Assembly (NCBI GenBank): GCA_003246455.1
Contig: QKAF01000163.1
Location: forward strand, 685-44,318
Direction: 5' to 3'
Length of the DNA: 43,634 nt
Source: Bacteroidota bacterium
Lineage (GTDB): Bacteria > Bacteroidota > Ignavibacteria > SZUA-365
The notes beneath the pieces were generated by a model. It was not told the origin of the DNA, made no database searches, and was given only the letters and a program-made list of their open reading frames with translations. Positions 5,289 through 22,563 of this stretch are shown in pieces. A program made the position numbers and the translations under genes. Numbering within the stretch: the stretch's first letter is position 1; each line of letters starts with the position of its first letter.

Positions 5289-5320
5289 AAGGGCATGCCG
5301 AAAGACATGCCCTTTCTTGT
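5289..5320 (+). terminator. Rho-independent terminator after the small exported protein
   Basis: A nine-base-pair perfect stem (AAGGGCATG, 5289-5297, with CATGCCCTT, 5306-5314) has an eight-base loop and is followed by the T-rich TCTTGT. It lies 25 bases after the stop codon at 5264. Confidence 0.75.
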
Positions 5321-5387
5321 ATCCCCGATTACGTCCGCCGCACATTTTCACGTGCCGCGGCCGACGTGTCACCCGGAAGAGATATCC

Positions 5388-6671
5388 ATGCGCCGTTCCC
5401 TGTTTCCCCTTCTCCTGATTCTCATCGCCGCCGGCTGCTCCGCGCCGCTGCAGCGGCAGCTTCATGACGGCGGCCTGCTCCGTGACGGCGGTCAGCCTGC
5501 AATCCGGGTCTGCATCGCCGACCGCGCGCGTGAAGCGGCGATCGGGATCAGCGACGGAGCCCTGCTTCTGACGGCGGACGGCCGGTACTCCCTCGACGGT
5601 TTCCGGGAACTGCGCTGCCGTCTTTCGGCTGACGGGGGAATACAGGTGCTCATGGACGGCCGCAAGGCCCGGCGCTTCGTCGGCGTGGCGCGCTGTTTCT
5701 ATCGTCAGCCCGGCTCCGTCTTCATGGTGAACGACCGTGCCTATTCGGACACGCTCGTCTTCGCTTCGGATGGTCAGCACCTCTACGTCATCAACATCCT
5801 TCCCCTCGAGGAATACCTCAAAAGCGTGGTCCCCCGGGAGATCGGACGGAACCGCAAGCCCGCGGAGGAGCAGGCGGCAGAGGCGCAGGCGATTCTTGCA
5901 CGGACCTATGCGCTCGGGAAGATCTCCCTTCCGCTCGCCCGGCTGTTCGACGTCTACGATGATACGCGCGACCAGGTCTTCGGCGGAATCGCCGAACGGG
6001 ATGAACTGACCTCGCGTGCGGTGGAGCGGACGGCGGGACAGGTGCTTGCGTACGAGGGAAAACTCGCCGAATGCTACTACCACTCCACCTGCGGCGGAAA
6101 CACGGAGGCTTCCTCGCTCGTCTGGCAGCGTCCCCAGTCCAAACCCTACCTGATCGGCAGCAAGGACCGCGGCGCCGACGGGGATTTCTGCCGCATCTCG
6201 CCGTCGTATCGATGGACGGAAGAATACACCCGCGAGGAACTCGAGTCCATTCTCCGCACTTTTCTCCCCTCCGCCAGCGACGCCATTCTGCCGTCAGATA
6301 TTCCGGGAGACCGATGGTATCTGCTTGATCTGAACGTACTTGCCCGCGGGGCTTCCGGACGCGTGACAACGCTGCAGATCGTGATGGGGAATCGGGGCCA
6401 GCAGCGGTCCTATTACCTGCACGGCGACAAGATTCGCTGGGGACTGCGCCGCAGCGACGACGGTCAGCCGCTGCGTTCCACGCTGTTCGATGTTTCCATG
6501 CGGAGAAACAGTGCGCACTGGATCGAACGCGTCCGTATCGACGGCGGCGGCAGCGGACATGGCGTCGGGATGTGCCAGTGGGGAGCAATCGGCATGGCCC
6601 GGGCGGGGTATCCCAGTGCGGAAATTCTGAAGAAATACTTTCCAGGGACGGAAGTGCTCTCCCTCTACTGA
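5388..6671 (+). CDS. SpoIID/LytB-domain lipoprotein (peptidoglycan-active)
   Basis: A 427-residue lipoprotein. The signal peptide ends in the lipobox AAGC, with Cys17 as the predicted lipidated residue. The middle and C-terminal parts are a SpoIID domain: LPLEEYLKSVVPREIG, with Glu151 at the position of the catalytic glutamate of Bacillus SpoIID, then the CGGNTE region, and the C-terminal signature GHGVGMCQWGA at about 390-400. SpoIID enzymes are lytic transglycosylases acting on denuded glycan strands. Outside sporulating bacteria they are thought to help cell-wall remodelling or septation. The frame is open upstream, but the ATG at 5388 is chosen for the signal peptide and the GGAAGAGA just before it. 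It is probably monocistronic, lying between a terminator and the glgA promoter. Confidence 0.92.
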   Translation: MRRSLFPLLLILIAAGCSAPLQRQLHDGGLLRDGGQPAIRVCIADRAREAAIGISDGALLLTADGRYSLDGFRELRCRLSADGGIQVLMDGRKARRFVGVARCFYRQPGSVFMVNDRAYSDTLVFASDGQHLYVINILPLEEYLKSVVPREIGRNRKPAEEQAAEAQAILARTYALGKISLPLARLFDVYDDTRDQVFGGIAERDELTSRAVERTAGQVLAYEGKLAECYYHSTCGGNTEASSLVWQRPQSKPYLIGSKDRGADGDFCRISPSYRWTEEYTREELESILRTFLPSASDAILPSDIPGDRWYLLDLNVLARGASGRVTTLQIVMGNRGQQRSYYLHGDKIRWGLRRSDDGQPLRSTLFDVSMRRNSAHWIERVRIDGGGSGHGVGMCQWGAIGMARAGYPSAEILKKYFPGTEVLSLY

Positions 6672-6817: not shown

Positions 6818-8305
6818 ATGGCGAAACCCATGAGTATCCTCTTCGTTTCCAGCGAGGTTGTTCCTTTCGCCAAAACGGGTGGCCTGGCAGACGTTTCGGC
6901 TGCCCTCCCTCAGGTCGTACGTGAACTCGGGCACGATATACGCATCATCATGCCGAAGTTCGCAGCAGTCAGCGACCGAAAATTCAAAATACATGACATC
7001 AAACGCCTGACCGATATGCCTATCGTTCTCGACGACCGGACATTTCTGGGCAGCGTCAAGAGCTCGTTTCTCACGAATATCAAGACGAAGGTACAGGTGT
7101 ACTTTCTGAGCAATGACCAGCTGTACTGCCGTTCCGATCTCTATGTCGATCCCAAGACGAAGGAAGCCTGGCCCGATAACGACGACCGCTTCATGTTCTT
7201 CTGCCGCGGCGTCATCGAAACGCTGATCCGCCTCGGATGGAAACCCGACATCATCCATCTCAACGACTGGCAGACCGGGCTGATCGCCGCGCTTCTGAAA
7301 ACCGAATACGCAGACGAACCGCTGTTCAAAAACACGAAAGTCGTTTTCACCGTCCATAACGCGGCGTATCAGGGAATCTTCCCGAAGGATTCCTTCGCCA
7401 AAACGGGCCTGCCGGACAAGACCTTCAAGACGGAAGGAGTCGAATTCCACGGCAACATCAATCTGCTCAAGGCCGGCTTGATGTACGCGGACGCGATTAC
7501 GACCGTCAGTCCCACCTACGCGAAGGAGGTGCGGGGTACGAAGGAATACGGCTACGGGCTCGAGGGGGTGTTCAAGAAGAAGGCGCGCAAGACGCACGGC
7601 ATTCTCAACGGCATGGACACCAGCATCTGGAATCCGGAAGTCGACAAGATGATTCCGAAAATGTACTCCGCCGAAACGCTGGAAGACAAGCAGGAAAACA
7701 AAAAGGCGCTCTGCGAGCGCTTCAAGCTTCCCTACGACCCACGCGTTCCGGTGATCGGCATCGTTTCACGCCTGGCCGACCAGAAGGGCTTCGACCTGAT
7801 CGAAGAGAAACTCGAAGATCTGATGAAAATGGATCTCCAGCTCGTCGTGCTCGGATCCGGTGAAAAGAAGTACGAGGATCTCTTCACCAAAGCCGCCAAG
7901 AAGTACAAGAAGAAGGTCGGCGCCCATATCGGGTTCGACGACGAGCTGGCGCATCTCATCGAGGCCGGTGCGGACATGTTCCTCATGCCGTCGAAGTATG
8001 AGCCCTGCGGACTAAACCAGATGTACAGTCTCCGCTACGGCACGCTGCCCATCGTTCGCGCGACGGGCGGGCTCGCCGACACGGTCGAGGATCTGGATGC
8101 CAAACCGAAAGCCGGGACCGGATTCGTATTCGAGAAGTACAACGCCAAGCAGATGCTCGATGCAGTCAAGCGCGCGCTGCGGGCGTTCGGCGACGAAAAG
8201 CTCTGGCAGGCCGCGCAGAAACGCAGCATGGCGAAAGACCACTCGTGGGATGCCTCGGCCCAGAAGTACATTGAGCTTTACAAGAATCTGCTCAAAAAGA
8301 AGTAA
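6818..8305 (+). CDS. glgA: Glycogen synthase (ADP-glucose type, GT5)
   Basis: A 495-residue cytosolic glycosyltransferase that adds glucosyl units from ADP-glucose to the non-reducing ends of alpha-1,4-glucan. The GT5 hallmark KTGGLADV is at residues 19-26. The Rossmann halves carry PDIIHLNDWQTGL, VFTVHNAAYQGIF, IGIVSRLADQKGFDL, and the C-terminal nucleotide-sugar motif PSKYEPCGLNQMYSLRYGT with the conserved Glu near 395. Length is normal for the family (about 480-500). TGGAG lies just upstream of the ATG; a second ATG four codons in is possible. It leads a same-strand run through rpiB. In Bacteroidota, as I recall, glgA is often followed by a gene for an exported DUF4270 protein, and the next gene here may be its counterpart. 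Confidence 0.96.
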   Translation: MAKPMSILFVSSEVVPFAKTGGLADVSAALPQVVRELGHDIRIIMPKFAAVSDRKFKIHDIKRLTDMPIVLDDRTFLGSVKSSFLTNIKTKVQVYFLSNDQLYCRSDLYVDPKTKEAWPDNDDRFMFFCRGVIETLIRLGWKPDIIHLNDWQTGLIAALLKTEYADEPLFKNTKVVFTVHNAAYQGIFPKDSFAKTGLPDKTFKTEGVEFHGNINLLKAGLMYADAITTVSPTYAKEVRGTKEYGYGLEGVFKKKARKTHGILNGMDTSIWNPEVDKMIPKMYSAETLEDKQENKKALCERFKLPYDPRVPVIGIVSRLADQKGFDLIEEKLEDLMKMDLQLVVLGSGEKKYEDLFTKAAKKYKKKVGAHIGFDDELAHLIEAGADMFLMPSKYEPCGLNQMYSLRYGTLPIVRATGGLADTVEDLDAKPKAGTGFVFEKYNAKQMLDAVKRALRAFGDEKLWQAAQKRSMAKDHSWDASAQKYIELYKNLLKKK

Positions 8306-8372
8306 CGGAAACCCCGCGGGATCTGCGGATCCGGGAAACATCCGTGCATCATGTTGTCCGGGGAATTCTCCC

Positions 8373-8464: not shown

Positions 8465-9628
8465 GTGCGTATCGTCACCGTACTCGCAGCTCTGCTGCTG
8501 TTTCTGACAGCATGCCAGAACGATCCCGATCCGACAGGAATCGGTCTCATACCGGATACAGACATCATCGGAGCCCTCGACTTCGATTCGCAGCGCGACT
8601 CTTCCGCATCGCGGTCCGCGGTGTATCCCTTCGAAATGACGCATGGGACAGCCGACATCATCTCCGTCGGAGAAGCTGAAGGCTACACCAGTCGCGCGCT
8701 GATGCGGTGGATTTATTTCCCCGCGGGTTACGCGGCGGGCGGTCGCATCGTTTCGGCGACCATCCGCCTCCATTCGCTGCCGTATCACCTCGGCGACGCG
8801 TCCGCGCCGTTCCGTCTCGAAGCCAGGGAGATCACCAGTTTCTGGAACTCCTACACGTTCACGAATACGGACTGGGCCGATCTGAAATATGAAGCGACGC
8901 CTGCCGGTATCTTCGAAGGGACATTCGGAGACAACGACAGCATCGATATTCCCATCGACAGCGCACTCGTGCGTACCTGGCTGATAAACAGCAGCGTCGA
9001 TTCCAATATCACGAAAAACTACGGCGTGATGCTCCAGGCCCCGACCGGGGGTGTCCGCAGCTTCTACTCTCTCGATGCCTCGTCACTGGTGCGGCCTCAG
9101 CTCACCGTCATCATCGAACTGGACGGTGTACTGGATACCCTGGCCGGCGAGTCCGCCGACGACACCTACCTGGTCACCGGAGCCATGCGTGAAGACGCAC
9201 AGCGGATCGTGCTGCAGGGAGGCACTTCGGTGCGCGGGAAACTGTACTTCGATCTCTCGGCCATTCCGCCCGCGAGCATCGTCAATTTTGCGCAGCTCTA
9301 TCTCACCAAGGATCCGGATCTGAGTACGGCAAACTATCGCGGTGCGGATACTGTTCTTGTATATGAGAGCGTGGACAGTACGGACAATGTTCTCAACAGC
9401 AGCGGTGTCTTCAGTAGAGAAGTCGAGTCCTCGCCCGGTGTGTATATCGCGGACGGGATCCTGATCACGCGCGCGGTGCAGAAGTGGGTAAACCACAAGG
9501 ACAACTACGGGTTCATTCTCGTTGCGATGAATGAAAACACCGATCTCGACAGACTGGCTCTTTACGGAGCGGATGCCCCGGAGGACAAACGTCCCCGGCT
9601 GGTCGTGACGTACACTACCAAACCCTGA
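8465..9628 (+). CDS. Exported lipoprotein with two DNRLRE/DUF4270-like beta domains
   Basis: A 387-residue lipoprotein. The GTG start gives a short signal peptide (VRIVTVLAALLLFLTAC) with lipobox LTAC; AGGA lies ten bases upstream. An in-frame GTG at 8441 is a less likely start. The mature protein begins CQNDPDPTGIGLIPD, reminiscent of DUF4270 lipoproteins, which begin with Cys, acidic residues and an 'IG..L.PD' stretch. It holds two related beta modules: strands such as RALMRWIYFP and VSATIRLHSL, closing with LVRPQLTVII, and GKLYFDLSAIPP and NFAQLYLTKD, closing with RPRLVVTY. This is the pattern of DNRLRE-type domains. The next gene starts six bases downstream, so a lipoprotein/barrel pair is likely. 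The assignment to DUF4270 is inference from synteny and the N-terminus. Confidence 0.75.
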   Translation: MRIVTVLAALLLFLTACQNDPDPTGIGLIPDTDIIGALDFDSQRDSSASRSAVYPFEMTHGTADIISVGEAEGYTSRALMRWIYFPAGYAAGGRIVSATIRLHSLPYHLGDASAPFRLEAREITSFWNSYTFTNTDWADLKYEATPAGIFEGTFGDNDSIDIPIDSALVRTWLINSSVDSNITKNYGVMLQAPTGGVRSFYSLDASSLVRPQLTVIIELDGVLDTLAGESADDTYLVTGAMREDAQRIVLQGGTSVRGKLYFDLSAIPPASIVNFAQLYLTKDPDLSTANYRGADTVLVYESVDSTDNVLNSSGVFSREVESSPGVYIADGILITRAVQKWVNHKDNYGFILVAMNENTDLDRLALYGADAPEDKRPRLVVTYTTKP

Positions 9629-9634
9629 CCCGAT

Positions 9635-10837
9635 ATGAAAAAACTCATCATCGCATTTCTTCTTCTCACCAGTATCGCCGGCGCGCAGAACGGGGGTACC
9701 GTTGAGTCGCGCTATGGAATCGGCGAACTGGATCTGATGGTGACGGCACGTCAGCGCGGGATGGGATCGACGGCCGCCGGCCTGCAGTCCGCGACGGACA
9801 TCAACACCATCAATCCTGCTGCCTGGTCATCCATTCAGGAGCTCCGACTGCAGGGCGGGATGTCGCTCGAGTACATCACCATTTCTCGCAGTTCCGACGT
9901 CGCCAAAAGCGGCGCGATAAAGGGATTCGGATTCGTGTTTCCGCTCGAGGAAAGCATGAAGCTCCGGCTGGGCTCGGCGATCATGCCGGTCAGCCGCTCC
10001 GACTATGCGACCGTGAGCCGCGGATCGATCAATGACGAGGCGTACACGATTTCCTACGAGGGCGCAGGCGGCCTGTCGCTGTTCCGCGCAGGACTTTCCG
10101 CCGAACCGCTGCCCCATGTGAAAATCGGCGCCGCCTACAACTATTATTTCGGAAATATCGATCAGAACTGGGAGCTGCGTTTCGACAACGGATCCTGGTT
10201 CACTTCCCGGCAGACGCGTGCCACGAGCCATAACGGATCCGGTTTCCTTCTCGGCCTGCTGTATGACGGCATGAAGCACCTCAGCATCGGTGCGTCACTG
10301 CAGACCGCCGCCCAGCTCAACGCCAGCCGGAACCTCGTGCTGGAATACTCCACGCAGGATTCCACCCTGACGGGAGCGAGCGGCAAGCAGGACCTTCCGA
10401 TGGCCATCGATATCGGCATTGCCTGGGAGATGACCGACGAACTGCTGATCGCCGCCGATTACCGGCGTCAGGACTGGACCGAAGCGATCATGTTCGACGG
10501 GAAACAAACCGGACAGGGTGAAGCGTATAAATTCGCGGTGGGCGCAGAATGGTACCCATACAAAAATGACCTGGATGCGCGCACACTGAGCCGGACCGCG
10601 TTTCGCCTCGGATTCTACATGCAGCAGCCGTACCTGGCTTTCGAGAACTACAAGGCGACAGAGTACTTCATCACTGCAGGTGCGGGCTTCCCGATTTTCG
10701 GCAACAATCGCGGCGACATCGCCCTGGAATACGGATCCCGGAGCAGCGACAGTCCGCTGCTCGGAACCCAGAACATCATGCGAGCCAGTTTTTCCGTCAC
10801 TGTCGGCGAATCCTGGTTCATACGTAAAACCGAGTAG
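9635..10837 (+). CDS. Outer-membrane beta-barrel protein (PorV/FadL-like)
   Basis: A 400-residue protein with a signal peptide (MKKLIIAFLLLTSIAGA). The N-terminal motif RQRGMGSTAAGLQSATD...INPAAW is typical of the PorV/FadL superfamily of FCB barrels. After it come about fourteen alternating amphipathic strands with aromatic girdle residues, ending in SFSVTVGESWFIRKTE. Barrels of this kind carry hydrophobic compounds (FadL) or act as T9SS shuttle components (PorV); the sequence alone does not decide between these. It starts six bases after the lipoprotein gene and a TPR-protein gene follows after 32 bases, so the three are probably one transcription unit at the outer membrane. No T9SS core gene is nearby. 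Confidence 0.8.
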   Translation: MKKLIIAFLLLTSIAGAQNGGTVESRYGIGELDLMVTARQRGMGSTAAGLQSATDINTINPAAWSSIQELRLQGGMSLEYITISRSSDVAKSGAIKGFGFVFPLEESMKLRLGSAIMPVSRSDYATVSRGSINDEAYTISYEGAGGLSLFRAGLSAEPLPHVKIGAAYNYYFGNIDQNWELRFDNGSWFTSRQTRATSHNGSGFLLGLLYDGMKHLSIGASLQTAAQLNASRNLVLEYSTQDSTLTGASGKQDLPMAIDIGIAWEMTDELLIAADYRRQDWTEAIMFDGKQTGQGEAYKFAVGAEWYPYKNDLDARTLSRTAFRLGFYMQQPYLAFENYKATEYFITAGAGFPIFGNNRGDIALEYGSRSSDSPLLGTQNIMRASFSVTVGESWFIRKTE

Positions 10838-10869
10838 CAATTTCTTCGATTTCGACCCTGGAGGATACC

Positions 10870-12153
10870 ATGCACCCCCTCAAGAACAAGCTTTTCGGCA
10901 TCGCCGTCCTGCTTCTGCTGGCCGTTCAGCCCATGATCTCCGTGGCGCAGAACGACAGCAACGGTGAGGACACTGAAAGGCTGCTGCGCCGTAACTGGAG
11001 CCTTTTCCTTGAGTATTTCAAGACACACGATTTCAAGGCCGCCAAAAAGGCCGGCTGGAAAATCATGGAGCTCGATCCCACGCGCTTCAATACCTTTCAT
11101 GTGAAATTCATCGATCTGTACGACTCGCTTGCCACGGCAGCCGCGACACCGCAGGAAAAGGCCGGTATTGCAGATACGCTGCTCATGATCGTGGACAACG
11201 CTATCGCGTCGTTCCCCGATCGCAAAGAGGAGTTTTACCGGCTGAAGGGATATCAGACAGAACGGCAGTTCTCTGATCGCGACAAGGACGCCATCGCGGC
11301 GTATGAGGCCGGTATCGGCGAACATTACGACACCGTCGATCTCTACTACGTGGTGCGCCTCGCGGTTCTGTATTCAAAATTCCCCGAGTACAAGCAGAAT
11401 GCCATCAAAGTTCTTCAGGCAATCCTGCTGCGCGACCCGAACAATGAAATCGCGCAGGGTCTTCTGAAGGGTCTGATGGAAAATCCGGAAGAATATATCA
11501 CCGTGCTGCGCGATGCGTACTTCGCCGATTCCGAGAACGTGACGAAGCTCTATGAGCTCGCCAACGGTTTCTACGAACTCGTTCAGCAGTATGACAGCGC
11601 CGCGGTGTATTTCAAGAAGCTCACGACGCTCTCTCCCGATGTCAAGAACTACTGGCAGCGCTACGGCGCCTCGCTTCTGTTCATCGAAGACTACAAGCAG
11701 GCGACGGAGGCGTATCGGAAGGTGACCGAACTCGATCCCGAGTCGAAGGAAGCCTGGATGAACCTCGCGCGTTCGATCCTCCAGGAAGGCAAGCTCTCCG
11801 ATGCCCGCACGTATGCCGAGAAGGCGTCTGCACTGGATCCGGCATGGGGCGCACCGCACATGGTCGTGGCGAACGCTTATGAAATGGCGGTGTCGCGCTG
11901 CGTGGAAGGAACCCGCGGCGGCTGGTCCAAGATGAAGGTGCTCGATAAGATGGTGTATCTCCTCGCGCAAAGCGAATACGCACGCGCGGCGCAGGATCCC
12001 CAGTTCGAGGGGCAGGCACGCGATCGTTCGCGCGCGCTCGACACCCTGACGCCCACGGCCGAGGACCTTTTCCTCAACAAGATCCCCAAGGGGAAACCCT
12101 ACGCGATCAACAAGGACTGCTACGGCTGGATCGGCCGCAGCGTTACCCCGTAA
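10870..12153 (+). CDS. Exported tetratricopeptide-repeat protein
   Basis: A 427-residue protein with a signal peptide (cleavage near SVAQ-ND) and a helical body. TPR units are clear at about 218-330, for example YDSAAVYFKKLTTLSPD, YKQATEAYRKVTELDPE and LSDARTYAEKASALDPA. The N-terminal part (residues 35-120) is also helical, with an ELDP turn. The end INKDCYGWIGRSVTP holds a Cys-x2-Trp that resembles conserved tails of periplasmic TPR proteins in Bacteroidota (from memory). GGAGG lies six bases before the ATG. It is probably a periplasmic scaffold that works with the barrel and lipoprotein encoded just upstream; this is inferred from position only. rpiB follows eight bases later. Confidence 0.85.
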   Translation: MHPLKNKLFGIAVLLLLAVQPMISVAQNDSNGEDTERLLRRNWSLFLEYFKTHDFKAAKKAGWKIMELDPTRFNTFHVKFIDLYDSLATAAATPQEKAGIADTLLMIVDNAIASFPDRKEEFYRLKGYQTERQFSDRDKDAIAAYEAGIGEHYDTVDLYYVVRLAVLYSKFPEYKQNAIKVLQAILLRDPNNEIAQGLLKGLMENPEEYITVLRDAYFADSENVTKLYELANGFYELVQQYDSAAVYFKKLTTLSPDVKNYWQRYGASLLFIEDYKQATEAYRKVTELDPESKEAWMNLARSILQEGKLSDARTYAEKASALDPAWGAPHMVVANAYEMAVSRCVEGTRGGWSKMKVLDKMVYLLAQSEYARAAQDPQFEGQARDRSRALDTLTPTAEDLFLNKIPKGKPYAINKDCYGWIGRSVTP

Positions 12154-12161
12154 GGAATGCC

Positions 12162-12593
12162 ATGATAGCACTCGCCTCGGACCACGGAGGATTTCACTAC
12201 AAGGAGCGATGCAAGACGCTTCTCGACGAGCTGGGCCTTGCGTGGAAGGATTTCGGAACCACCAGCGACGAAAGCGTCGATTACCCCGACTTCGCCCATG
12301 CGGCCGCCGAGGCGATTCAGCGTGGTGAATGCGATCGCGGGATCTTCATCTGCGGGACGGGCATCGGCATCAGTCTCGCCGCGAACAGGCATAAGGGCAT
12401 ACGGGCCGCTGCCTGCCAGATACTGGAAGCCGCGCGCATGTCGCGACTGCACAACGACGCGAACGTGCTGGCGCTGGGTGAGCGCCTGGTCGACTGGCCT
12501 CTCGCCGAAAAGATGATCCGGCTCTGGCTCGAAACGCCCTTCGAAGGAGGGCGCCACGAACGCCGAATAGGAAAAATCGAAATCGAAGAATAA
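12162..12593 (+). CDS. rpiB: Ribose-5-phosphate isomerase B
   Basis: A 143-residue cytosolic enzyme of the pentose phosphate pathway interconverting ribose-5-phosphate and ribulose-5-phosphate. Family motifs are intact: ASDHGG (5-10), SVDYPDFA (38-45), the CGTGIG loop with catalytic Cys64 (64-69), and SRLHNDAN (94-101) with His97, equal to Cys66 and His99 of E. coli RpiB. Length is normal. It is the last gene of the run that starts at glgA, eight bases after the TPR gene, and the strong hairpin at 12593-12630 ends the unit. A member acting on allose- or galactose-6-phosphate cannot be excluded, but no such pathway genes are nearby. Confidence 0.95.
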   Translation: MIALASDHGGFHYKERCKTLLDELGLAWKDFGTTSDESVDYPDFAHAAAEAIQRGECDRGIFICGTGIGISLAANRHKGIRAAACQILEAARMSRLHNDANVLALGERLVDWPLAEKMIRLWLETPFEGGRHERRIGKIEIEE

Positions 12594-12630
12594 AAAGAAA
12601 CGTCCCGCCATCGAGCGGGACGTTTCTTTT
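12593..12630. terminator. Bidirectional intrinsic terminator between rpiB and the Yip1 gene
   Basis: A perfect 16-base-pair stem (12593-12608 with 12615-12630) has a six-base loop CATCGA. The arms begin AAAAGAAACG and end CGTTTCTTTT, so each strand carries a U-rich 3' end after a GC-rich core. The left arm begins at the last base of the rpiB stop codon. The convergent gene ends at 12672. Confidence 0.93.
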
Positions 12631-13544: not shown

Positions 13545-13761
13545 CGACAGGGAGAAAAAGAGCGGAACATGCGTTATGGCGAATGTCCCGGTATGAGCTT
13601 GCCGTCGTGCCGGGGCGGCGGATGACATCACAAGTACACCGCGGGGGCAGGGTTTATTCACGGAGGATGGAAACATTATCTGCGCGGGGGCGGGCTTTCG
13701 GCTCGATTATGTGCCCCGTGAGGCGCTATATTCTCCCTATGTCCATGAAACGGGGTTCTCC

Positions 13762-16700
13762 ATGAAATCGCTACGCATCACCTTTCTGCTTCCTGTCGTC
13801 ATGCTGCTTTTCCTGTCGTCGAATCTGGCATTCGCCCAATGGAAATGGCTTAATCCGCTGCCGGAGGGCAACGAGTTTCTTGACGCCACATTTCTCGACG
13901 CACAGCGCGGGTGGATCGTGGGAGGCAACGGCGCCCTTCTGCACACCACCGACGGCGGCATGACCTGGACCTCGCGGGCGAACATTCTCCGCACGACACC
14001 GTTTCTGGGATTGAGCATGGTCTTCACCGACGCGCTGACCGGCGTGATCTCGTTCAACAACGGTCTTCTGCTCCGGACGAGCGATGCGGGGATCAGCTGG
14101 GAACTGCTGCCGCGGACCGCCCTCACGATGCAGAAGCTTCGCAGGGCGCCGGACGGAAGCCTCTGGGGAATCGGCAGCCTGGGCGCCATCGCGCGCAGTA
14201 CCGACGCCGGTCTGACCTGGGAGCGCTTTTCCACCGGGACGACCACGGTGATTTACGACATCGCGTTCCCCGACGCGCAGACCGCCGTTGCGGTTTGCGG
14301 CGGCGGCCTGATCCTTCGCAGCCAGGACGGAGGACAAAGCTGGTCCAACGTCAACGCTCCCATCGGTACCGATATCACGTCCGTCGCTTTCCGCGATGCA
14401 CAGAACGGTTTCGCCGTGCAGAAACCCAAATACCTGCTGCGGACCACCGACGGCGGTGCGACGTGGAGCGATACCTCGTTCGTACTCAACGAACTGACGC
14501 AGGTCCGTTTCACTTCGGCGACTACGGGCTGGCTGGTCAGCAACAGCATCGGATCGGTGTTCAAGACCGTGGACGGGGGCATGAGCTGGCAGTTCATCGA
14601 AGTCGAACAGCCGCGTCGCTTCACCTTCTACGCCGTGTATCCGATCGACGATCAGAAGGCATTCCTGTTCGGGACCGGCGGAGCGGTTTTCTCGACCTTC
14701 GACGGGGGACAGTCGTGGACGCAGCACGGAACGGCATTCTCGCGCCAGCATTTCCATGGCGTCACGGCCCTGAGCGATTCCTCCGCATGGGTGTTCGGTG
14801 ACGGTTCCGCGTTCTATACCGAAGACCGGGGTGAAACCTGGAGCGGCTCCGATACCATCACGCTAGCCGGATTCCATTCGGGATTTGCGCTCTCGCCGAC
14901 ACGCATCCTCGGGACGGGCACCCAGGGGCAGGTCATGTTTTCCGACGATGCGGGACAGAACTGGACGACGCAGGTGCTCAACGGACGGGGACAGATCGCG
15001 CAGGTGCTTTTCGTCGATCAGGACAACGGATGGCTCACCGGTGCGCACGGCACGATCGCACGCAGCAGTGACGGCGGTGCAACCTGGATGGATCTCGACG
15101 CCGGCGTCACGCATGACTTCAACGGTATCGCGGCGATCTCCGCGAGCGAAGCCTGGATCGCAGGCGACGAGGGACGGATCTATCATACGAGCGACGGCGG
15201 TGCAAACTGGCAGGAACAGAACACGCCGATCTCGACGCACCTTCAGACCGTGTATTTCACTGACGCGATGAACGGATGGGCCGGCGGACAGCTTGCCCTG
15301 CTGAGAACCTCGGACGGAGGCACAACGTGGACCTCCGTGACCGGGCTGGCCGGACTCGACGTCATCTACCGTATCATTTTCACCGATGCGCAGCATGGAT
15401 ATTTCATGCTCAGCCGTTCGGTCGCACGCACCAGTGACGGCGGCGCGACGTTCTACCGCACCGATTACCCCGCCGTCGGGCTGCGCGACGTCGATGCCGT
15501 ATCGGACGGCCATCTCTGGCTGGCCGGAGATTTCGGTACCGTTCAGTCCTACACCCCTGCCGCGGCAATCTATATCCAGCCGACGATGCTTGATTTCGGC
15601 GACGTTTCGGTCGACCGGCAGCACACGCTGAGCTTCACGGTTTACAACCGCGGAGAAATTCCGCTGGACTTCAACAATGTCGCCACCGTGGGACCGGGAT
15701 TCCTGTTTGTCGGCGGAGACCTGTCGCCGCTGCAGCCGGGAGACAGCCGTGAAATAACCGTCGCATTCGCGCCGAAAGACACGGGCATGGCCTACGGTAC
15801 GGCGACCGTGTATTCGAACGCTGCGCTCGGGATTCCCTTCATCGATCTTGTGGGACACGGCGTGCCGCCCGGAACCTCCGCGTTCATTCATTCCCCGGAT
15901 ACGCTGGATTTCGGCACCCTGCTGCTCGGAACCTATGAATCGCGTTTCGTTCGGCTGACCAATCGCGGGACGCAGCCCATCCTCATCAGTGCGGAGCGCA
16001 GCAGCGGCGGAGATTCCACCATGTTCCAGGTGACCACGGAATCCACGTTCTTTTTCGCCGCAGGGAAGGTCGATTCGGTACAGGTCACGTTCTCTCCTCT
16101 TCGTCCGGGCGATTTCAACAGCTGGCTGCTTATCGGTTCGAACGACGTTGTTGAACCGCAGTACCGCATTCCGATCAAGGGAAGCGCTATCACACCGACG
16201 ATCGCGACGGACGATGTCATCGAGTTCGGCTATGTCCTCCTCGACAGCGGCAAGACGATCGACGTGAGCATCCGGAACGCGGGCCGCGCTCCGCTGCATA
16301 TCACGAGCTGGATGCCGGGCGGAGCGGATGCCTCGCTGTTCGCATTCACCGACCCCGGTGCGGTGACCATTGCCGGCGGCGATTCCCTGATCGTTCCGGT
16401 GACGTTCACTCCGCGTACCTACGGCGAAAAAAGCGCATTCATCACGATCGCGTCCGACGACCTGGTGAACAGCAGCTATGAACTGCAGCTGCATGGCAAT
16501 GCCACAACCCTCGGTGCGGAAGACGCACCCGCGCCCGCGGCGATTCTGCTTTCGCAGAACTACCCCAATCCGGTCTCTCTGGCGACGTCCGCTCAGACGG
16601 TGTACGCGTTTACGCTTCCGGCGCGCATGGCCGTGACCATGTCGCTGTACGACCTGCAGGGACGGGAAGTCCTCCGCGTGGCCGACGGCGAATACGCGGC

Positions 16701-16824
16701 CGGACGGCATGAACTTCGCGCGCAGCTTTCCGCGCTCCCGAGCGGCAGTTATCGTGCGGTGCTCACCGCGCGAGACGGACGGCATGAGCGGCAGAGCCAG
16801 GTATCGACAGTCATCATCCGCTGA
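13762..16824 (+). CDS. Large secreted protein: 13 BNR repeats, ASH domains, T9SS sorting domain
   Basis: A 1020-residue exported protein. After the signal peptide (ends LAFAQ) come thirteen BNR/Asp-box repeats of the form TxDGGxTW spread over about residues 40-590 (HTTDGGMTW, RTSDAGISW, RSSDGGATW and so on), as in Ycf48-like beta-propellers. Residues about 605-920 hold three ASH/'choice-of-anchor D' modules, each starting with a 'LDFGxVxxG/LLG' strand (LDFGDVSVDR, LDFGTLLLGT, IEFGYVLLDS). The last 85 residues are a T9SS type A sorting domain, starting with SQNYPNPVS and including MSLYDLQGREVLR and LPSGSYRAVL. The ATG at 13762 starts the signal peptide; an upstream in-frame ATG at 13711 is not supported. 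It is a surface-exported propeller protein, ligand unknown. menF begins five bases after its stop, an odd neighbour. Confidence 0.93.
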   Translation: MKSLRITFLLPVVMLLFLSSNLAFAQWKWLNPLPEGNEFLDATFLDAQRGWIVGGNGALLHTTDGGMTWTSRANILRTTPFLGLSMVFTDALTGVISFNNGLLLRTSDAGISWELLPRTALTMQKLRRAPDGSLWGIGSLGAIARSTDAGLTWERFSTGTTTVIYDIAFPDAQTAVAVCGGGLILRSQDGGQSWSNVNAPIGTDITSVAFRDAQNGFAVQKPKYLLRTTDGGATWSDTSFVLNELTQVRFTSATTGWLVSNSIGSVFKTVDGGMSWQFIEVEQPRRFTFYAVYPIDDQKAFLFGTGGAVFSTFDGGQSWTQHGTAFSRQHFHGVTALSDSSAWVFGDGSAFYTEDRGETWSGSDTITLAGFHSGFALSPTRILGTGTQGQVMFSDDAGQNWTTQVLNGRGQIAQVLFVDQDNGWLTGAHGTIARSSDGGATWMDLDAGVTHDFNGIAAISASEAWIAGDEGRIYHTSDGGANWQEQNTPISTHLQTVYFTDAMNGWAGGQLALLRTSDGGTTWTSVTGLAGLDVIYRIIFTDAQHGYFMLSRSVARTSDGGATFYRTDYPAVGLRDVDAVSDGHLWLAGDFGTVQSYTPAAAIYIQPTMLDFGDVSVDRQHTLSFTVYNRGEIPLDFNNVATVGPGFLFVGGDLSPLQPGDSREITVAFAPKDTGMAYGTATVYSNAALGIPFIDLVGHGVPPGTSAFIHSPDTLDFGTLLLGTYESRFVRLTNRGTQPILISAERSSGGDSTMFQVTTESTFFFAAGKVDSVQVTFSPLRPGDFNSWLLIGSNDVVEPQYRIPIKGSAITPTIATDDVIEFGYVLLDSGKTIDVSIRNAGRAPLHITSWMPGGADASLFAFTDPGAVTIAGGDSLIVPVTFTPRTYGEKSAFITIASDDLVNSSYELQLHGNATTLGAEDAPAPAAILLSQNYPNPVSLATSAQTVYAFTLPARMAVTMSLYDLQGREVLRVADGEYAAGRHELRAQLSALPSGSYRAVLTARDGRHERQSQVSTVIIR

Positions 16825-16829
16825 TCGGC

Positions 16830-18014
16830 ATGACAGATTATCCGGCGCAATTTCTTTCGCTCATTGAGCGGCGGCCCGGTCCGTATTTCTTCTGGCGCTC
16901 GCCGGAAGGCGAAATCCTGATGGCCGCCGGGTCGCGCCGGAACCATGGCGTCATTCCGTCCGGCGAGTGGCGATCCCGGATCATCGACGATCTCGGAGCC
17001 GATCCGGAGCATCCGTCGATCGCACTGCTGCATTTTTCTCCCACAGATACCGCTTCGTCGGAATGGGAAGGATTTCCTCCGGTTCATGTGTATGAGCCGG
17101 AGGTCGCGATGCATTTACGTGGCGGCGAACCGCGGTTCTGGGGTATGGACGCTTCGGCGCTTGCCGGTTCGGACGCAGGCCGTGATGCCGAGTCCGCCGG
17201 AGAAGGTACGCTCGAGATACGGGCGTGGGATCAGGAGCAGTATCGCGGGCGGGTCGAGGCGGCGCTTCATCCCCTGCGGGAAGGAGTTCTCGAGAAGGTG
17301 GTCATCGCCCGGCGGAGCACGATCCGCCTTTCTCGTTCGTTTGATCTGTACCGCGCGCTGCATGCGATGCAGCAGCAGCCCCACGCATTCTCCATCTGCT
17401 GGAGTCCCGACGGGCGCCGTTTTTTCCTCAGCGCCACCCCGGAACGGCTGGGCCGCGTCTCCGACGGCCACTTTGAAACCATGGCGCTTGCCGGAACCGT
17501 GACGCGGCGAGACGGCCGTTCGGTCGAAACACTGCTTTCCGATGCCAAGGAGCAGGCCGAGCACCACTTCGTCGTGGAGATGCTGCGTTCGGCGGCCGCG
17601 ACGTTCTCTTCCGCAGCTGCGGTGCGGGAGGTGCGCGTGCTCGAGCTCCCGCATGTGACGCACATCCTGACGCACATCGGGGGACGAATGAAAGCGGAAT
17701 GCGGAATGCGCCACGTCATCGCCGCACTGCATCCGACGCCTGCCGTCGCGGGGACCCCGCGAGGGGCCGCGGAAGAACTGATCGCCGCGCTCGAACCGTT
17801 CGACCGCGGGATGTACGCCGGGTGTGCCGGATGGTTTATCGGCGACCGGGAGGGCGACGCGGCGGTGACCATACGGAGTACGCTTGTGAGCGGGTGCGAC
17901 GCGCTCGTCTGGGCGGGAGCAGGGATCGTCGCGGAAAGCGACGCCGCGGCGGAGGAACGGGAGACCCGTGCGAAACTGCAGACCATGATCGATATTCTCG
18001 CTTCCGCCTGCTGA
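16830..18014 (+). CDS. menF: Isochorismate synthase (menaquinone-specific)
   Basis: A 394-residue chorismate-binding enzyme converting chorismate to isochorismate, the first committed step to menaquinone. C-terminal catalytic motifs are intact: LEKVVIAR (154-161) with the general base Lys156, ATPERL (202-207), LAGT (220-223), KEQAEHHFVVE (240-250) with Mg-binding glutamate, HPTPAVAGTPR (301-311), and AGAGIVAESDAAAEERET (362-379). The N-terminal 130 residues are divergent, as is usual in MenF/DhbC/EntC proteins. Placement directly before menD, menB, menA, menC and menE fixes the role as menaquinone rather than siderophore synthesis. It begins five bases after the large T9SS protein with no clear Shine-Dalgarno, so translation may depend on coupling. 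No pyruvate-lyase activity is expected. Confidence 0.95.
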   Translation: MTDYPAQFLSLIERRPGPYFFWRSPEGEILMAAGSRRNHGVIPSGEWRSRIIDDLGADPEHPSIALLHFSPTDTASSEWEGFPPVHVYEPEVAMHLRGGEPRFWGMDASALAGSDAGRDAESAGEGTLEIRAWDQEQYRGRVEAALHPLREGVLEKVVIARRSTIRLSRSFDLYRALHAMQQQPHAFSICWSPDGRRFFLSATPERLGRVSDGHFETMALAGTVTRRDGRSVETLLSDAKEQAEHHFVVEMLRSAAATFSSAAAVREVRVLELPHVTHILTHIGGRMKAECGMRHVIAALHPTPAVAGTPRGAAEELIAALEPFDRGMYAGCAGWFIGDREGDAAVTIRSTLVSGCDALVWAGAGIVAESDAAAEERETRAKLQTMIDILASAC

Positions 18015-18032
18015 GTTTCGACGCGGGAACGT

Positions 18033-18065
18033 GTGTCCGACACGACAATTCCGTATTTTAATACG
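18033..18065. promoter_or_regulatory. Paired palindromes between menF and menD
   Basis: Two inverted repeats lie in the 92-base gap before menD: GTGTC-C-GACAC (18033-18043) and CGTATT-TT-AATACG (18052-18065). The second is AT-rich and also contains a TATTTTA that could serve as a -10/-7 box. They may be an operator or an internal promoter of the men genes; no regulator can be named from sequence. Confidence 0.35.
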
Positions 18066-18106
18066 AAACCGGCATTTTACCCCCACTCCGAACCCTACGA
18101 AATCTT

Positions 18107-20734
18107 TTGCAGCGCTACGCAAACATCAATCAGCTCTGGGCGCATGTCATCACCGATGAACTTGCGCGAAACGGTGTGCGCCATGTCGTGATTTCTCCCG
18201 GGTCGCGCAACACCCCGCTGGTGCTGGCGTTCGCGGCGCACCCGGATATCACGGATCATTCCGTGATCGACGAACGCTCCGCCGCCTTTTTCGCGCTCGG
18301 CCTGGCGAAAGCCGGCGGGCAGGCCGTCGCCCTGCTCTGTACGTCCGGAACCGCGGCCGCGAATTATTTCCCCGCCGTATGCGAAGCGGATGCCGCGGAG
18401 GTGCCGCTCGTGCTGCTGACCGCCGATCGTCCGGGCGCACTGCGCGACAGCGGCGCCCCCCAGACGATGGATCAGATAAAGCTGTTCGGCGACCATGTCC
18501 GCTGGTTCATGGATGCCGGACTTCCGGAGGCGGACGACGTGCGACTGCGCGCGCTGCGTTCATCGATCTGCCACGCGTACGCGATGGCCGCGGGCGGTCC
18601 TGCCGGGCCGGTTCAGGTCAATCTTCCGTTTCGCAAACCGCTGGAACCGATTCCCGCGGAACGCCGCCGGGATCAGATTCCGGATGACGTGTACGTGCAT
18701 GATCTCGAAGCCGTCACCGGGAGAGCCGACGGACGTGCCTGGAGACGCACCTGCCCGGGATCTTCTCCGGACGGTGTTCTCGAGGAGGTCGCCGACGCCC
18801 TGCTGTCTGCGCGGCGTCCCGTGATTCTTGCCGGCACGAATGCGGACGCGGCGGCGTCGACGGAGGAACTGCTGCGTCTCGCGGAACGCCACAGTATCCC
18901 GATTTTCGCGGAGGCCACGTCCCAGCTGCGGTCCGGCCGATCTCATGCAATGCGATTCTCGACCCTGGACCTGCTGCTTCGTTCGTCCGCGTTCCGGAAC
19001 GCCTTCACGCCGGACCTGATCGTTCAGATCGGCGGAGTGCCGACGAACGCGTCGATCCAGCGCTTTGTCGGGCATTCGCCGGCCGATCACATCAGTATCA
19101 CGCGGGAGCACAGGCGCGCGGATGCGGCGCATACCGTGCGTCTGCACGTGCACGACGATGCCGGAACGTTCGTTACGCGGCTTTCGGCATTCCTCGCAGG
19201 CTGTCCGCCGCGGATCGGCGATCCGGATTTTCTGCGGTCGGTCAGCGTCGCCGACGATGCGGCGCGCGAAGCGATCGCAAAACGCTGGGCTGCCTCGACC
19301 CCGAACTTCGAGGGAGCGTTCATGTACCGTCTCGCAGGACTGCTGCCCGCCCACAGCACGCTATTCGTATCGTCGAGCATGCCGATACGCGATTTCGAAA
19401 CCTTTGCGCTCGATCTGCCCGAGGGCTGCCGGATCTTTTTCAACCGGGGAGTGAACGGGATCGACGGCATCGTGTCGACCGCGCTCGGCGTCGCTCGGGA
19501 GCGTGGAACTCCTGCGTTTCTTCTGACTGGCGATATCGCGTTTCTCCACAATCTGAACGCGGCGGCGGGGTCGCTGCTGCGCGAGATCCCGCTCACGGTG
19601 CTGCTGCTCAACAACGACGGCGGAGAAATCTTCGACATGCTGCCGGTGCGCGATTTCGATCCCGCCTATACGAAACATTTCACGACTCCGCACGGGGTGG
19701 ATTTCGCCAGCGCATGCGCGGCATTCGGGATCAGCCATGCGTACATCGCGAACGCCGGGGATCTGGAAAGCGCGCTCCACCGTAACGCCGCACAGTCCGG
19801 CATGCGGGTGCTCGAACTGCGGACGTCGATCAGGGAAAGCGGGTCGATCCGGCGTGATGTACTGGGCGATGTGACCGCGGCCGTCGACGAAGCACTGCCG
19901 CAGCGCGAGCCGTCACCGTCCGGGAAACGTGAAGCGTTTCCTTTCGCCTGGCGCGTCCTTTCGCACGGGGAGAGCGAGCCGGTGCTGCTGCTGCACGGTT
20001 TCACCCGCGCGAGCGGAAGCTGGACACGGGTGCTCGCCGAACTGACGCATCCGCATGCCATCGGCGTCGATTTGATGGGGCACGGAGAATCTCCTTCTCC
20101 CGACCCCGCGGTGCATTTCGGGATGTACGGACTCGAGCATGCGGCCGAGGAAATCCACCGCCTCATCCGGCGGCTCGGACTGGGGAAGGTGCATCTGGTG
20201 GGGTATTCCCTCGGAGGCCGGACGGCGCTGCACCTGGCGCTGCGGTATCCTGAAGTGCTGCATTCGCTCGCACTCGTCAGCGCGAATCCCGGCATCGAAG
20301 ATGCACAGGACCGCGCCCGGCGCAAGGAAGAGGATGCGGAACTCGCGGTACGGGTCGGTGAAATCGGACTCGAACGTTTCGTGGACGAGTGGGGCGGAGG
20401 CGCGCTGTTCGCGGCCCAGCGCACGCTTGACCCGGGTGCCTGGCTGGAGGCACGGCGCGACCGCATGCGCAGACGCTGCCGCGGTCTGCAGGGATCGCTG
20501 CTCGGCAGCGGACAGGGAGTGCAGGAATCGCTGTGGGAGTTCCTGCCGCAGCTCACGGTTCCGGTGCTTGTCGCCGCGGGAGCGGAAGACGGCCGGTACG
20601 CCGAGATCGCCGCGCGCATGACAGAACTGCTGCCGAACGCGGAACTGCGTGTTTTTGAAGGCGCCGGACACGACCTGCCGTTCGAGCGTCCGGCGGCACT
20701 CGCCGCCGCGCTGCAGGAGCGGTGGAAACGCTGA
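18107..20734 (+). CDS. menDH: MenD-MenH fusion: SEPHCHC synthase plus SHCHC synthase
   Basis: An 875-residue bifunctional enzyme in one uninterrupted frame. Residues 1 to about 590 are MenD, the thiamine-diphosphate enzyme that joins isochorismate and 2-oxoglutarate: PGSRNTPL (31-38), Glu56 of DERSAAFF activating the cofactor, [15 protein letters not shown], and the ThDP/metal site [11 protein letters not shown] (475-485) plus LNNDGGEIF. After a short linker (about 598-612), residues 615-875 are an alpha/beta hydrolase fitting MenH, which removes pyruvate to give SHCHC: LLHGF (628-632), nucleophile Ser701 in GYSLGG, Asp828 in AGAEDGRY and His855 in GAGHDLPFE. MenH usually has its own gene. 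The TTG start at 18107 matches the usual MenD N-terminus ([14 protein letters not shown]); no good Shine-Dalgarno is visible. Channelling the unstable SEPHCHC is a plausible benefit. Confidence 0.95.
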
Positions 20735-20786
20735 CCGCAGGAGATTTGTTGACCTGATACCCTATTCATTGCGACAGAATGGAAAC

Positions 20787-21635
20787 ATGAGCGACATCAA
20801 CTGGACAACCGTCAAGCAATACAGCGATATCACTTTCCGTAAGAGCGACGAAGGCATCATGCGGATCGCCATCAACAGGCCGGAGGTGCGGAATGCCTTT
20901 CGTCCCGAAACCGTCGATCAGCTGCTCGACGCCTTCCACATCGCCGCACTCGACCCCGAAGTCGGCGTCGTGCTGCTCACGGGCGAGGGTCCGGCAAAGG
21001 ATGGGAAATGGGCGTTCTGCAGCGGCGGTGATCAGAAAATCCGCGGCGATGCCGGCTACATGGCGCAGAACGAACACGCCGTGCCGCGCCTCCATATCCT
21101 GGAACTGCAGCGGCTGATACGGAGCATGCCCAAGGTGGTCATCGCGCTGATTGCGGGATACGCCATCGGCGGGGGGCACGTGCTGCATGTGGTGTGCGAC
21201 CTGAGCATCGCGGCGGAGAATGCAATATTCGGACAGACAGGTCCGAAAGTCGGCAGTTTCGACGGCGGCTTCGGCGCGTCGTACCTGGCCCGCATGGTCG
21301 GGCAGAAGCGCGCCCGCGAAATCTGGTATCTCTGCCGGCAGTATGATGCGCAGGAAGCGTTCGACATGGGGCTGGTCAACACGGTGGTTCCCGTCGAGCA
21401 GCTCGCCGACGAGGGCGCGCAGTGGGCGCGCGAAATAATGCAGAAATCGCCGCTGGCGATCCGCCTTCTGAAATCCGCGTTCAACGCCGAACTGGACGGA
21501 CAGGCGGGAATCCAGGAACTCGCCGGGAACGCGACGCTGCTCTATTACATGTCGGAGGAAGCGCAGGAAGGCAAGAATTCCTATGTCGAAAAACGGAAAC
21601 CGAACTTCCGCAAATACCGCTGGCTCCCGTGGTAG
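20787..21635 (+). CDS. menB: 1,4-dihydroxy-2-naphthoyl-CoA synthase
   Basis: A 282-residue crotonase-fold enzyme that closes the second ring of o-succinylbenzoyl-CoA to give DHNA-CoA. Signatures: [15 protein letters not shown] (77-91), the oxyanion-hole region [17 protein letters not shown] (124-140), and [20 protein letters not shown] (150-169). Gly152 in [10 protein letters not shown] is the residue found in bicarbonate-dependent (E. coli-type) MenB; the other type has Asp there. The C-terminal FRKYRWLPW matches the family end. The ATG at 20787 is chosen by homology; the frame is open upstream into the end of menDH. It lies 52 bases after menDH, and menA starts seven bases after its stop. 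Confidence 0.96.
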
Positions 21636-21642
21636 GAGGAGC

Positions 21643-22560
21643 ATGAAGAAGATGAGCCAGGCACGCCCCGCTTCCGATATCAGCCGTGCCCACGCATGGG
21701 TGCTGGCGTCACGGCCGAAAACACTTCCCGCGGCCGTTGTTCCGGTGCTGGTCGGTTCCGCGGTCGCCGCCTCGGAGGGAGCATTCACCGCGCTTCCCGC
21801 GGCCGTCGCACTGCTGTGCGCACTGCTGATACAGATCGGGACCAACCTCGCCAACGATTATTTCGATTTCATCAAAGGGGCCGATTCGGAGCATCGCATC
21901 GGACCGGTGCGCGTGACGCAGAGCGGGCTGATTCCGCCCCGCACCGTGCGTAACGCCATGATCGGGGTGTTCGTGCTGACCTTCATCCTCGGGCTGTACC
22001 TGGTTTCGGTCGGAGGATGGGTGATCCTGGCAATCGGCGTCGCGTCGCTTTTCTGCGCGGTGATATACACCGCCGGTCCGTTTCCCCTCGCGTATGTCGG
22101 ACTCGGCGACCTGTTCGTTTTTCTTTTTTTCGGTATCGTCGCCGTCACCGGAACGCATTACGTTCAGGCGCTGCACTGGTCGATGGATGCCTTCATCGCG
22201 TCTCTTCCGGTCGGCGCCATTTCCACGGCGATCCTCGTGGTCAACAATTACCGCGACATCGATACCGACCGGGTCGCCAACAAGAAGACCATGGCCGTGC
22301 GGATCGGCCGCGCGGCGACGAGGATGGAGTACCGGCTTCTGCTTCTTCTGGCCTATGCCGTGCCGGTTGCGCAGGTTCTGCGGACCGATGCACCGCTCTG
22401 GCTGCTGCTTCCTCTGCTCAGCCTTCCCTTCGCGTTCCGTGTTCTGCGCATCGTCGGGCGAAGCACCGACGGTGGGGAACTGAACAACGCACTCGCAGGG
22501 ACAGGACAACTGCTTGCCGTGTACGGCATCCTGTACGCGGCGGGCTGCTACCTGGCGTGA
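21643..22560 (+). CDS. menA: 1,4-dihydroxy-2-naphthoate polyprenyltransferase
   Basis: A 305-residue UbiA-family membrane enzyme that attaches the polyprenyl side chain to DHNA with loss of CO2, giving demethylmenaquinone. About eight to nine membrane helices alternate with two Asp-rich prenyl-diphosphate sites: NDYFDFIKGAD (first, near residue 70) and NNYRDIDTDR (second, near 205), followed by NKKTMAVRIGR. The N-terminal SRPKTLPAAVVPVLVGSA is typical of MenA. AGGAGGA lies four bases before the ATG at 21643, which decides the start against an upstream frame opening. It is translated in close succession with menB (7-base gap) and menC (3-base gap). Confidence 0.96.
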   Translation: MKKMSQARPASDISRAHAWVLASRPKTLPAAVVPVLVGSAVAASEGAFTALPAAVALLCALLIQIGTNLANDYFDFIKGADSEHRIGPVRVTQSGLIPPRTVRNAMIGVFVLTFILGLYLVSVGGWVILAIGVASLFCAVIYTAGPFPLAYVGLGDLFVFLFFGIVAVTGTHYVQALHWSMDAFIASLPVGAISTAILVVNNYRDIDTDRVANKKTMAVRIGRAATRMEYRLLLLLAYAVPVAQVLRTDAPLWLLLPLLSLPFAFRVLRIVGRSTDGGELNNALAGTGQLLAVYGILYAAGCYLA

Positions 22561-22563
22561 CCC

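Follow-up and report, generated by a model that had tools for sequence, protein, structure and literature searches.

The 43,634-nucleotide stretch analysed here (the window; positions 685 to 44,318 of the forward strand of contig QKAF01000163.1, assembly GCA_003246455.1, from a Bacteroidota bacterium of the class Ignavibacteria) carries three plus-strand open reading frames (ORFs) between glgA and rpiB. On balance, this locus is probably the BamH-BamG pair of a Bacteroidota-type barrel assembly machinery (BAM) together with a periplasmic tetratricopeptide repeat (TPR) protein which most likely acts with them. Judging from sequence and profile comparisons, the lipoprotein and the barrel are almost certainly homologues of BamH and BamG, and gene linkage and distribution lead us to lean towards the TPR protein being a BAM accessory factor. 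Insertion of outer-membrane proteins in the Bacteroidota is carried out by the BAM complex, of which BamG, a FadL homologue, and BamH were published as core subunits in October 2025 (PMC12611786, PMC12578637). An initial annotation of the window had described the three genes, with gaps of 6 and 32 bases, as an undescribed outer-membrane module. Both gaps were recovered from the ORFs (a third, between the TPR gene and rpiB, is 8 nucleotides) and the lipoprotein and barrel do appear to form an outer-membrane assembly unit, but the module cannot be called uncharacterised as these two proteins are homologues of published subunits. The lipoprotein-barrel unit is already known, and what has gone unreported is the TPR protein. 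Comparisons were made with 61 relatives, comprising genomes of the class of the window and nearer kin, and with a wider set of 392 genomes of the phylum.

The barrel was found to match the NCBIfam BamG model NF053685 with an E-value of 3.6e-67 (227.2 bits). Its significant relatives among the sequences of the Protein Data Bank (PDB) are all BamG chains, namely 9hiv_F of B. thetaiotaomicron (E 1.3e-26), 9hjm_F of P. gingivalis (E 6.8e-24) and 9n2d_B of the F. johnsoniae complex (E 5.9e-20). At E<=1 the same search returned no FadL, no PorV and no other barrel, the only further hit being a chance match to an endoglucanase; PorV itself was not searched for. The N-terminal tail of the window barrel, AQNGGTVESRYGIGELD, aligns with the tail of the solved BamG 9hiv_F, and a tail of the RYG or RFG type was observed in most rows of the barrel alignment of relatives. 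An N-terminal extension is described as marking BamG off from FadL transporters (PMC12578637). The barrel had initially been labelled PorV/FadL-like. Its membership of the FadL superfamily stands, and a match to Toluene_X/FadL was seen at E 0.0063, below the cut-off of that family, but the significant solved relatives are neither PorV nor FadL. A FadL-type transporter of fatty acids or hydrophobic compounds with a lipoprotein partner, including the plain fatty-acid transporter considered initially, is hardly credible beside the BamG chains, the BamG-type tail and the adjoining BamH homologue. These same features, together with the outcome of the PDB search, make a PorV-type barrel equally hard to credit, even though PorV, too, is homologous to FadL (PMC12578637) and the genome encodes SprA.

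One point counts against the BamG assignment, which is that the score lies under the NF053685 naming cut-off of 250 bits. This cut-off is an automatic naming threshold and not a biological feature. It was passed in 161 of the 392 phylum genomes, which include members of the same class with the same operon (G276 and G059), and we therefore term the window barrel a BamG homologue rather than an NCBI-named equivalog. The low score would also fit a dispensable pair of the BamG2-BamH2 type in place of the main BamG-BamH, and such paralogue pairs are described in F. johnsoniae and B. thetaiotaomicron (PMC12611786, PMC12578637). This is very improbable here because the barrel is the sole strong BamG match in an assembly of 4.1 Mb that is 98.37% complete, the next best match having an E-value of 1.4e-9. 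Second BamG copies were noticed in two other genomes (G032:C30:79643-80815 and G385:C149:14287-15459), with BamG-model scores (333 bits) far above the expectation for the class; their transfer from Bacteroidia is possible.

The lipoprotein precursor comprises 387 amino acids when read from the GTG at 8465, which gives the start MRIVTVLAALLLFLTAC and an LTAC lipobox at 8504-8515. GTG 8441 is also a possible start, and the longest mechanical ORF begins at 8351. The description of this protein as DNRLRE/DUF4270-like was borne out, with a DNRLRE domain at about 8642-9109 (NF033679, E 1.1e-21) and a DUF4270 relation that was seen through family profiles. As a single sequence the lipoprotein gave no DUF4270 match at E<=1 and no PDB relative. 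A profile of 38 orthologues matched the DUF4270 chain 9hjm_G (E 3.6e-9), and a profile built from 30 proteins at the bamH position across the phylum matched 9hjm_G (E 1.1e-18), the chain 9n2d_C named 'Bam H' (E 7.1e-11) and 9his_G (E 3e-5). Taken alone, nine of these 30 proteins match Pfam DUF4270, the window protein not being among the nine. The lipobox pattern was found in all 38 orthologues, whereas at least two acidic residues in the six following the lipid cysteine, the criterion for surface lipoproteins as used in PMC12578637, were found in 23/38, including the window protein (CQNDPDP, two residues). An AlphaFold2 model of the BamH homologue (5 sequences) was poor, with a predicted local distance difference test (pLDDT) of 51.3. 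We also noticed that residues 259-380 weakly resemble TGF-beta prodomains (PF00688 E 1.5e-4, below cut-off), and the BamH family profiles matched the BMP9 prodomain at E 2.5e-4 and 0.0014; this likeness perhaps reflects a shared jelly-roll fold.

BamG and BamH genes occur in most of the 61 relatives, and the lipoprotein itself was matched in 54 of them. The order glgA-bamH-bamG was observed in 36 of the 40 loci around the lipoprotein matches, the other four being cut by contig ends, and a single-sequence search recognised this order in 35 of the 40. This arrangement is more than chance. Loci fetched around TPR matches have bamG directly upstream in 36/40, where the four exceptions (L141, which is cut upstream by a contig end, L142, L152 and L158) are second TPR copies that were fetched deliberately and whose genomes hold a bamG-linked copy as well. 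The TPR gene stands directly behind bamG in 61 of 95 bamG loci; this is not a frequency, because many of the loci were picked for having the TPR gene. Of 20 loci that were chosen out of the BamG matches, seven had the TPR gene, two of these being known beforehand. Neighbours of the 61 bamG-TPR pairs are bamH (51), glgA (50), tatC (25), the serine hydroxymethyltransferase gene (24) and rpiB (19), and less often rho (11), coaX (7), lptC (6) and a SurA-like peptidyl-prolyl isomerase (PPIase) gene (6). The three genes of the window thus co-occur in relatives, as the initial annotation had supposed. The link to glgA that it had drawn holds as a conserved neighbourhood, while nothing was found that points to a glycogen role; such a role was set aside, glgA being missing in eight loci that retain the TPR-bamG pair. 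In those eight (L137, L159, L195, L198, L207, L208, L210 and L212) no glgA, bamH or rpiB was recognised in the stretch read, and the neighbours are coaX and, in most cases, lptC together with a CNNM gene and the gene of a SurA-like PPIase. Both lptC and the SurA-like PPIase belong to outer-membrane biogenesis. In many loci of the class, glgA and bamH are separated by a gene for a GmhB-type heptose-bisphosphate phosphatase, for example at L143:3414-3992.

The N-terminus of the TPR protein resembles a type I signal peptide as judged by eye, and a lipobox pattern is found in just 1 of 66 sequences of the family. In seven loci of the window's own family that hold all three genes, the TPR protein is 62-83% identical to that of the window, compared with 42-67% (lipoprotein) and 51-79% (barrel). 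It represents a specific family rather than a loose assortment of TPR proteins. It carries no NCBIfam equivalog name, all matches of the window protein lying far below cut-offs, and the BamD/YfiO model TIGR03302 is absent from its 20 NCBIfam matches at E<=1. BamD is, like the window protein, exported and built of TPR repeats, but the latter is longer, has no lipobox and carries a conserved cysteine tail. The possibility that it is BamD itself was rejected on the missing TIGR03302 match, on the rarity of the lipobox and on the separate BamD encoded at G000:C68. An AlphaFold2 model (7 sequences; mean pLDDT 73.7, predicted template modelling score 0.49) shows an array of helical repeats and, close to the C-terminus, a pair of short bridge strands. 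Generic TPR superhelices were its structural matches, the best being O-GlcNAc transferase (Z 16.6, root-mean-square deviation 12.5 over 318 aligned residues), and the TPR profiles likewise found generic TPR chains among solved sequences; both comparisons are uninformative on function.

A conserved feature of this family is its C-terminal tail, which is mostly of the CYxWI[GN] type; of the 64 proteins extending to the profile end, 51 conform to C[YFW]x[WFY][ILV]. Equivalents of Cys344 and Cys417, scored within six columns and by the tail pattern, were both present in 62 of 65 proteins and both missing in three, and one was never found alone (L061, cut by a contig end, was left out of this count). 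The three proteins lacking both residues are those of L152, L198 and L208, the last two being sisters on a BamG tree. That the two cysteines never occur singly suggests a disulfide which staples the tail to the helical array, and the conserved tail is probably held by a Cys344-Cys417 bond.

The first TPR profile matched 28 of the 61 relatives and 132 of the 392 phylum genomes, and a wider profile at E 1e-20 matched 178/392. Some borderline matches of the wider profile (G021, G295 and several in the genus of G212) perhaps represent different TPR proteins; in G021, bamG (L060) is not followed by a TPR gene. BamG was found in 325 of the 392 genomes. Among the 67 without it, the 20 that were listed all belong to one family (f34), probably Chlorobiaceae, and none of the 178 TPR-positive genomes falls in this family. 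The Chlorobiota are described in the published account of BAM as being without BamG and BamH, which agrees with this distribution. On a FastTree tree of BamG, TPR presence needs 15 changes, nine of them forced by well-supported branches, compared with 28.0 for shuffled labels. The TPR gene was lost repeatedly. The BamG of G212 matches F. johnsoniae BamG 9n2d_B at E 7.7e-215, and the genus of G212 is taken from this match to be Flavobacterium; the PDB comparisons of the BamGs of L194 and L212 served only to place those genomes relative to solved BamGs. G212 itself has no TPR match. In its genus a match at E 1e-20, counted irrespective of bamG adjacency and weak in some cases, was found in 27 of 101 genomes, leaving 74 without. 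The repeated loss and the patchy presence in this genus suggest that the TPR protein is accessory. The model species F. johnsoniae may lack the gene, as judged from its relatives.

Several observations weigh against a role of the TPR protein in BAM. The gene is absent from 34 of the 95 bamG loci, which means that BamG works without it, and second copies exist away from bamG. The shared operons include genes of unrelated function such as glgA and rpiB, and the C-terminal tail of the model has a pLDDT of about 65. The words 'TPR' and 'tetratricopeptide' have zero occurrences in the text of PMC12611786 and PMC12578637, figures and supplements being outside this scope. A literature search, covering the openings of abstracts and a term search in these two papers, did not turn up any reference to a TPR protein as a partner of BamG. 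The TPR protein could accordingly have a separate periplasmic function, for example in the type IX secretion system (T9SS), lipopolysaccharide transport or the cell wall, and merely share an operon of outer-membrane biogenesis. Its dispensability across lineages, the presence of neighbours without a known BAM role and the position of the gene beside lptC in some loci would all suit this explanation, which we regard as unlikely although deserving of weight. It accounts less well for the eight loci where the TPR-bamG pair persists with glgA, bamH and rpiB unrecognised, and for seven TPR-less bamG loci that carry lptC (in L205, lptC lies 54 nucleotides after bamG), where the neighbours were kept and the TPR gene alone was lost. 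The accessory BAM factor is favoured by this adjacency to bamG, by the lack of TPR matches in f34, the family of the listed BamG-less genomes, by the pairing of the cysteines and by the lptC and SurA-like PPIase genes, each of which stands beside 6 of the 61 pairs.

By homology with the solved complexes, BamG would lie in the membrane at the back of BamA, and its extended N-tail would thread through the lateral opening of the BamG barrel; the tail of BamH, which is lipidated, would wrap round BamG, and BamH would arch on the extracellular side above the place where client barrels are folded by BamA. As an exported protein with no lipid anchor, the TPR protein may dock through its C-terminal tail onto the periplasmic face of BamG or of the neighbouring BamA or BamD, and this docking could help to load or time client insertion. 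The F. johnsoniae BAM (BamA, D, G, H, M and P; PMC12611786; 9N2D) resembles the present system in that BamG and BamH homologues are found here and BamA (E 2.7e-126) and BamD (E 6.8e-34) are encoded on other contigs of the assembly, the window itself lying within contig 37. It differs in that bamH and bamG of the window are adjacent behind glgA, that the BamH precursor is shorter than the 517-residue chain 9n2d_C, and that a TPR gene not named in the text of PMC12611786 is linked to them. BamM and BamP are stated to be confined to Flavobacterium and Flavobacteriaceae (PMC12611786). With the BAM of B. thetaiotaomicron and P. gingivalis (BamA, D and G-K; PMC12578637; 9HIS, 9HIV, 9HJ3 and 9HJM) the window shares BamG and BamH homologues, a lipidated BamH and acidic residues after the cysteine, and again the linked TPR protein is not named in the text of that paper. 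The coordinates of the features are collected in Table 1.

Table 1. Features of the glgA-rpiB region in window coordinates.
Feature	Position	Strand	Remarks
glgA	6818-8305	+	TIGR02095 E 1.9e-181; conserved upstream neighbour
bamH-type lipoprotein gene	8465-9628	+	GTG start, lipobox, DNRLRE domain; family profiles match BamH
bamG-type barrel gene	9635-10837	+	400 amino acids; matches NF053685 and solved BamG chains
BamG-like N-tail, residues 18-33	9686-9733	+	aligned with the tail of 9hiv_F
Exported TPR protein gene	10870-12153	+	427 amino acids; bamG-linked family; proposed BAM accessory factor
Cys344 codon	11899-11901	+	proposed disulfide partner of Cys417
C-terminal tail CYGWIGRSVTP with Cys417, then stop	12118-12153	+	conserved tail pattern
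rpiB	12162-12593	+	PF02502 E 5.4e-56; downstream neighbour
Palindrome, 17 pairs	12593-12630		between rpiB and a convergent gene; possible terminator

The operon may end at the palindrome after rpiB, which the terminator scan (18 sites found, 6.0 expected) lists for the minus strand. A promoter scan found 2 sites against 2.5 expected and no promoter is claimed. Upstream of glgA, a SpoIID/LytB-domain protein is encoded at 5295-6671 (TIGR02669 E 1.3e-57), and it is also found near glgA in several relatives. A menaquinone cluster occupies 16830-25190 with menF, menD fused to menH in a single ORF (18107-20734), menB, menA, menC and menE. The minus-strand protein at 37317-39386 combines an Omp28-like region with a T9SS type A sorting tail (E 1.3e-8), and a Ycf48/choice-of-anchor-D protein at 13711-16824 has a T9SS tail below threshold.

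Candidate clients of BamG and BamH, which were described in 2025, are SusCD, SprA-like giants and surface lipoproteins, and SusC and SprA are both offered as reasons for the two subunits (PMC12611786). SprA, which is present in the genome of the window, passed its cut-off in 60 of the 61 relatives, the genome without it being 68% complete. SusC passed in 16 of the 61 and not in the genome of the window; some partial match was observed in 51/61, and a divergent SusC could fall under the cut-off. With caution on this last point, the tie of BamG and BamH to SprA holds in the 61 relatives, unlike that to SusC. A BamG-BamH machine seems to occur commonly where canonical SusC is missing, and this points to SprA-like proteins as an older client.

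Taken together, we tentatively propose that the BamG-type BAM has, in the TPR family, an unrecognised periplasmic subunit or loading factor as old as the phylum. This protein would grip BamG or BamA by its disulfide-stapled tail and would have been missed because at least one of the model species with a solved complex has close relatives that lost it. In the class of the window it would serve a BamG-BamH machine that has SprA and not SusCD as its main special client. This proposal as a whole may well hold, but we think it slightly likelier to fail in some part. If the TPR protein is a BAM factor, the BAM would gain a periplasmic part where most of its new parts are extracellular, and Flavobacterium, with and without a match in different genomes, would offer a ready genetic test.

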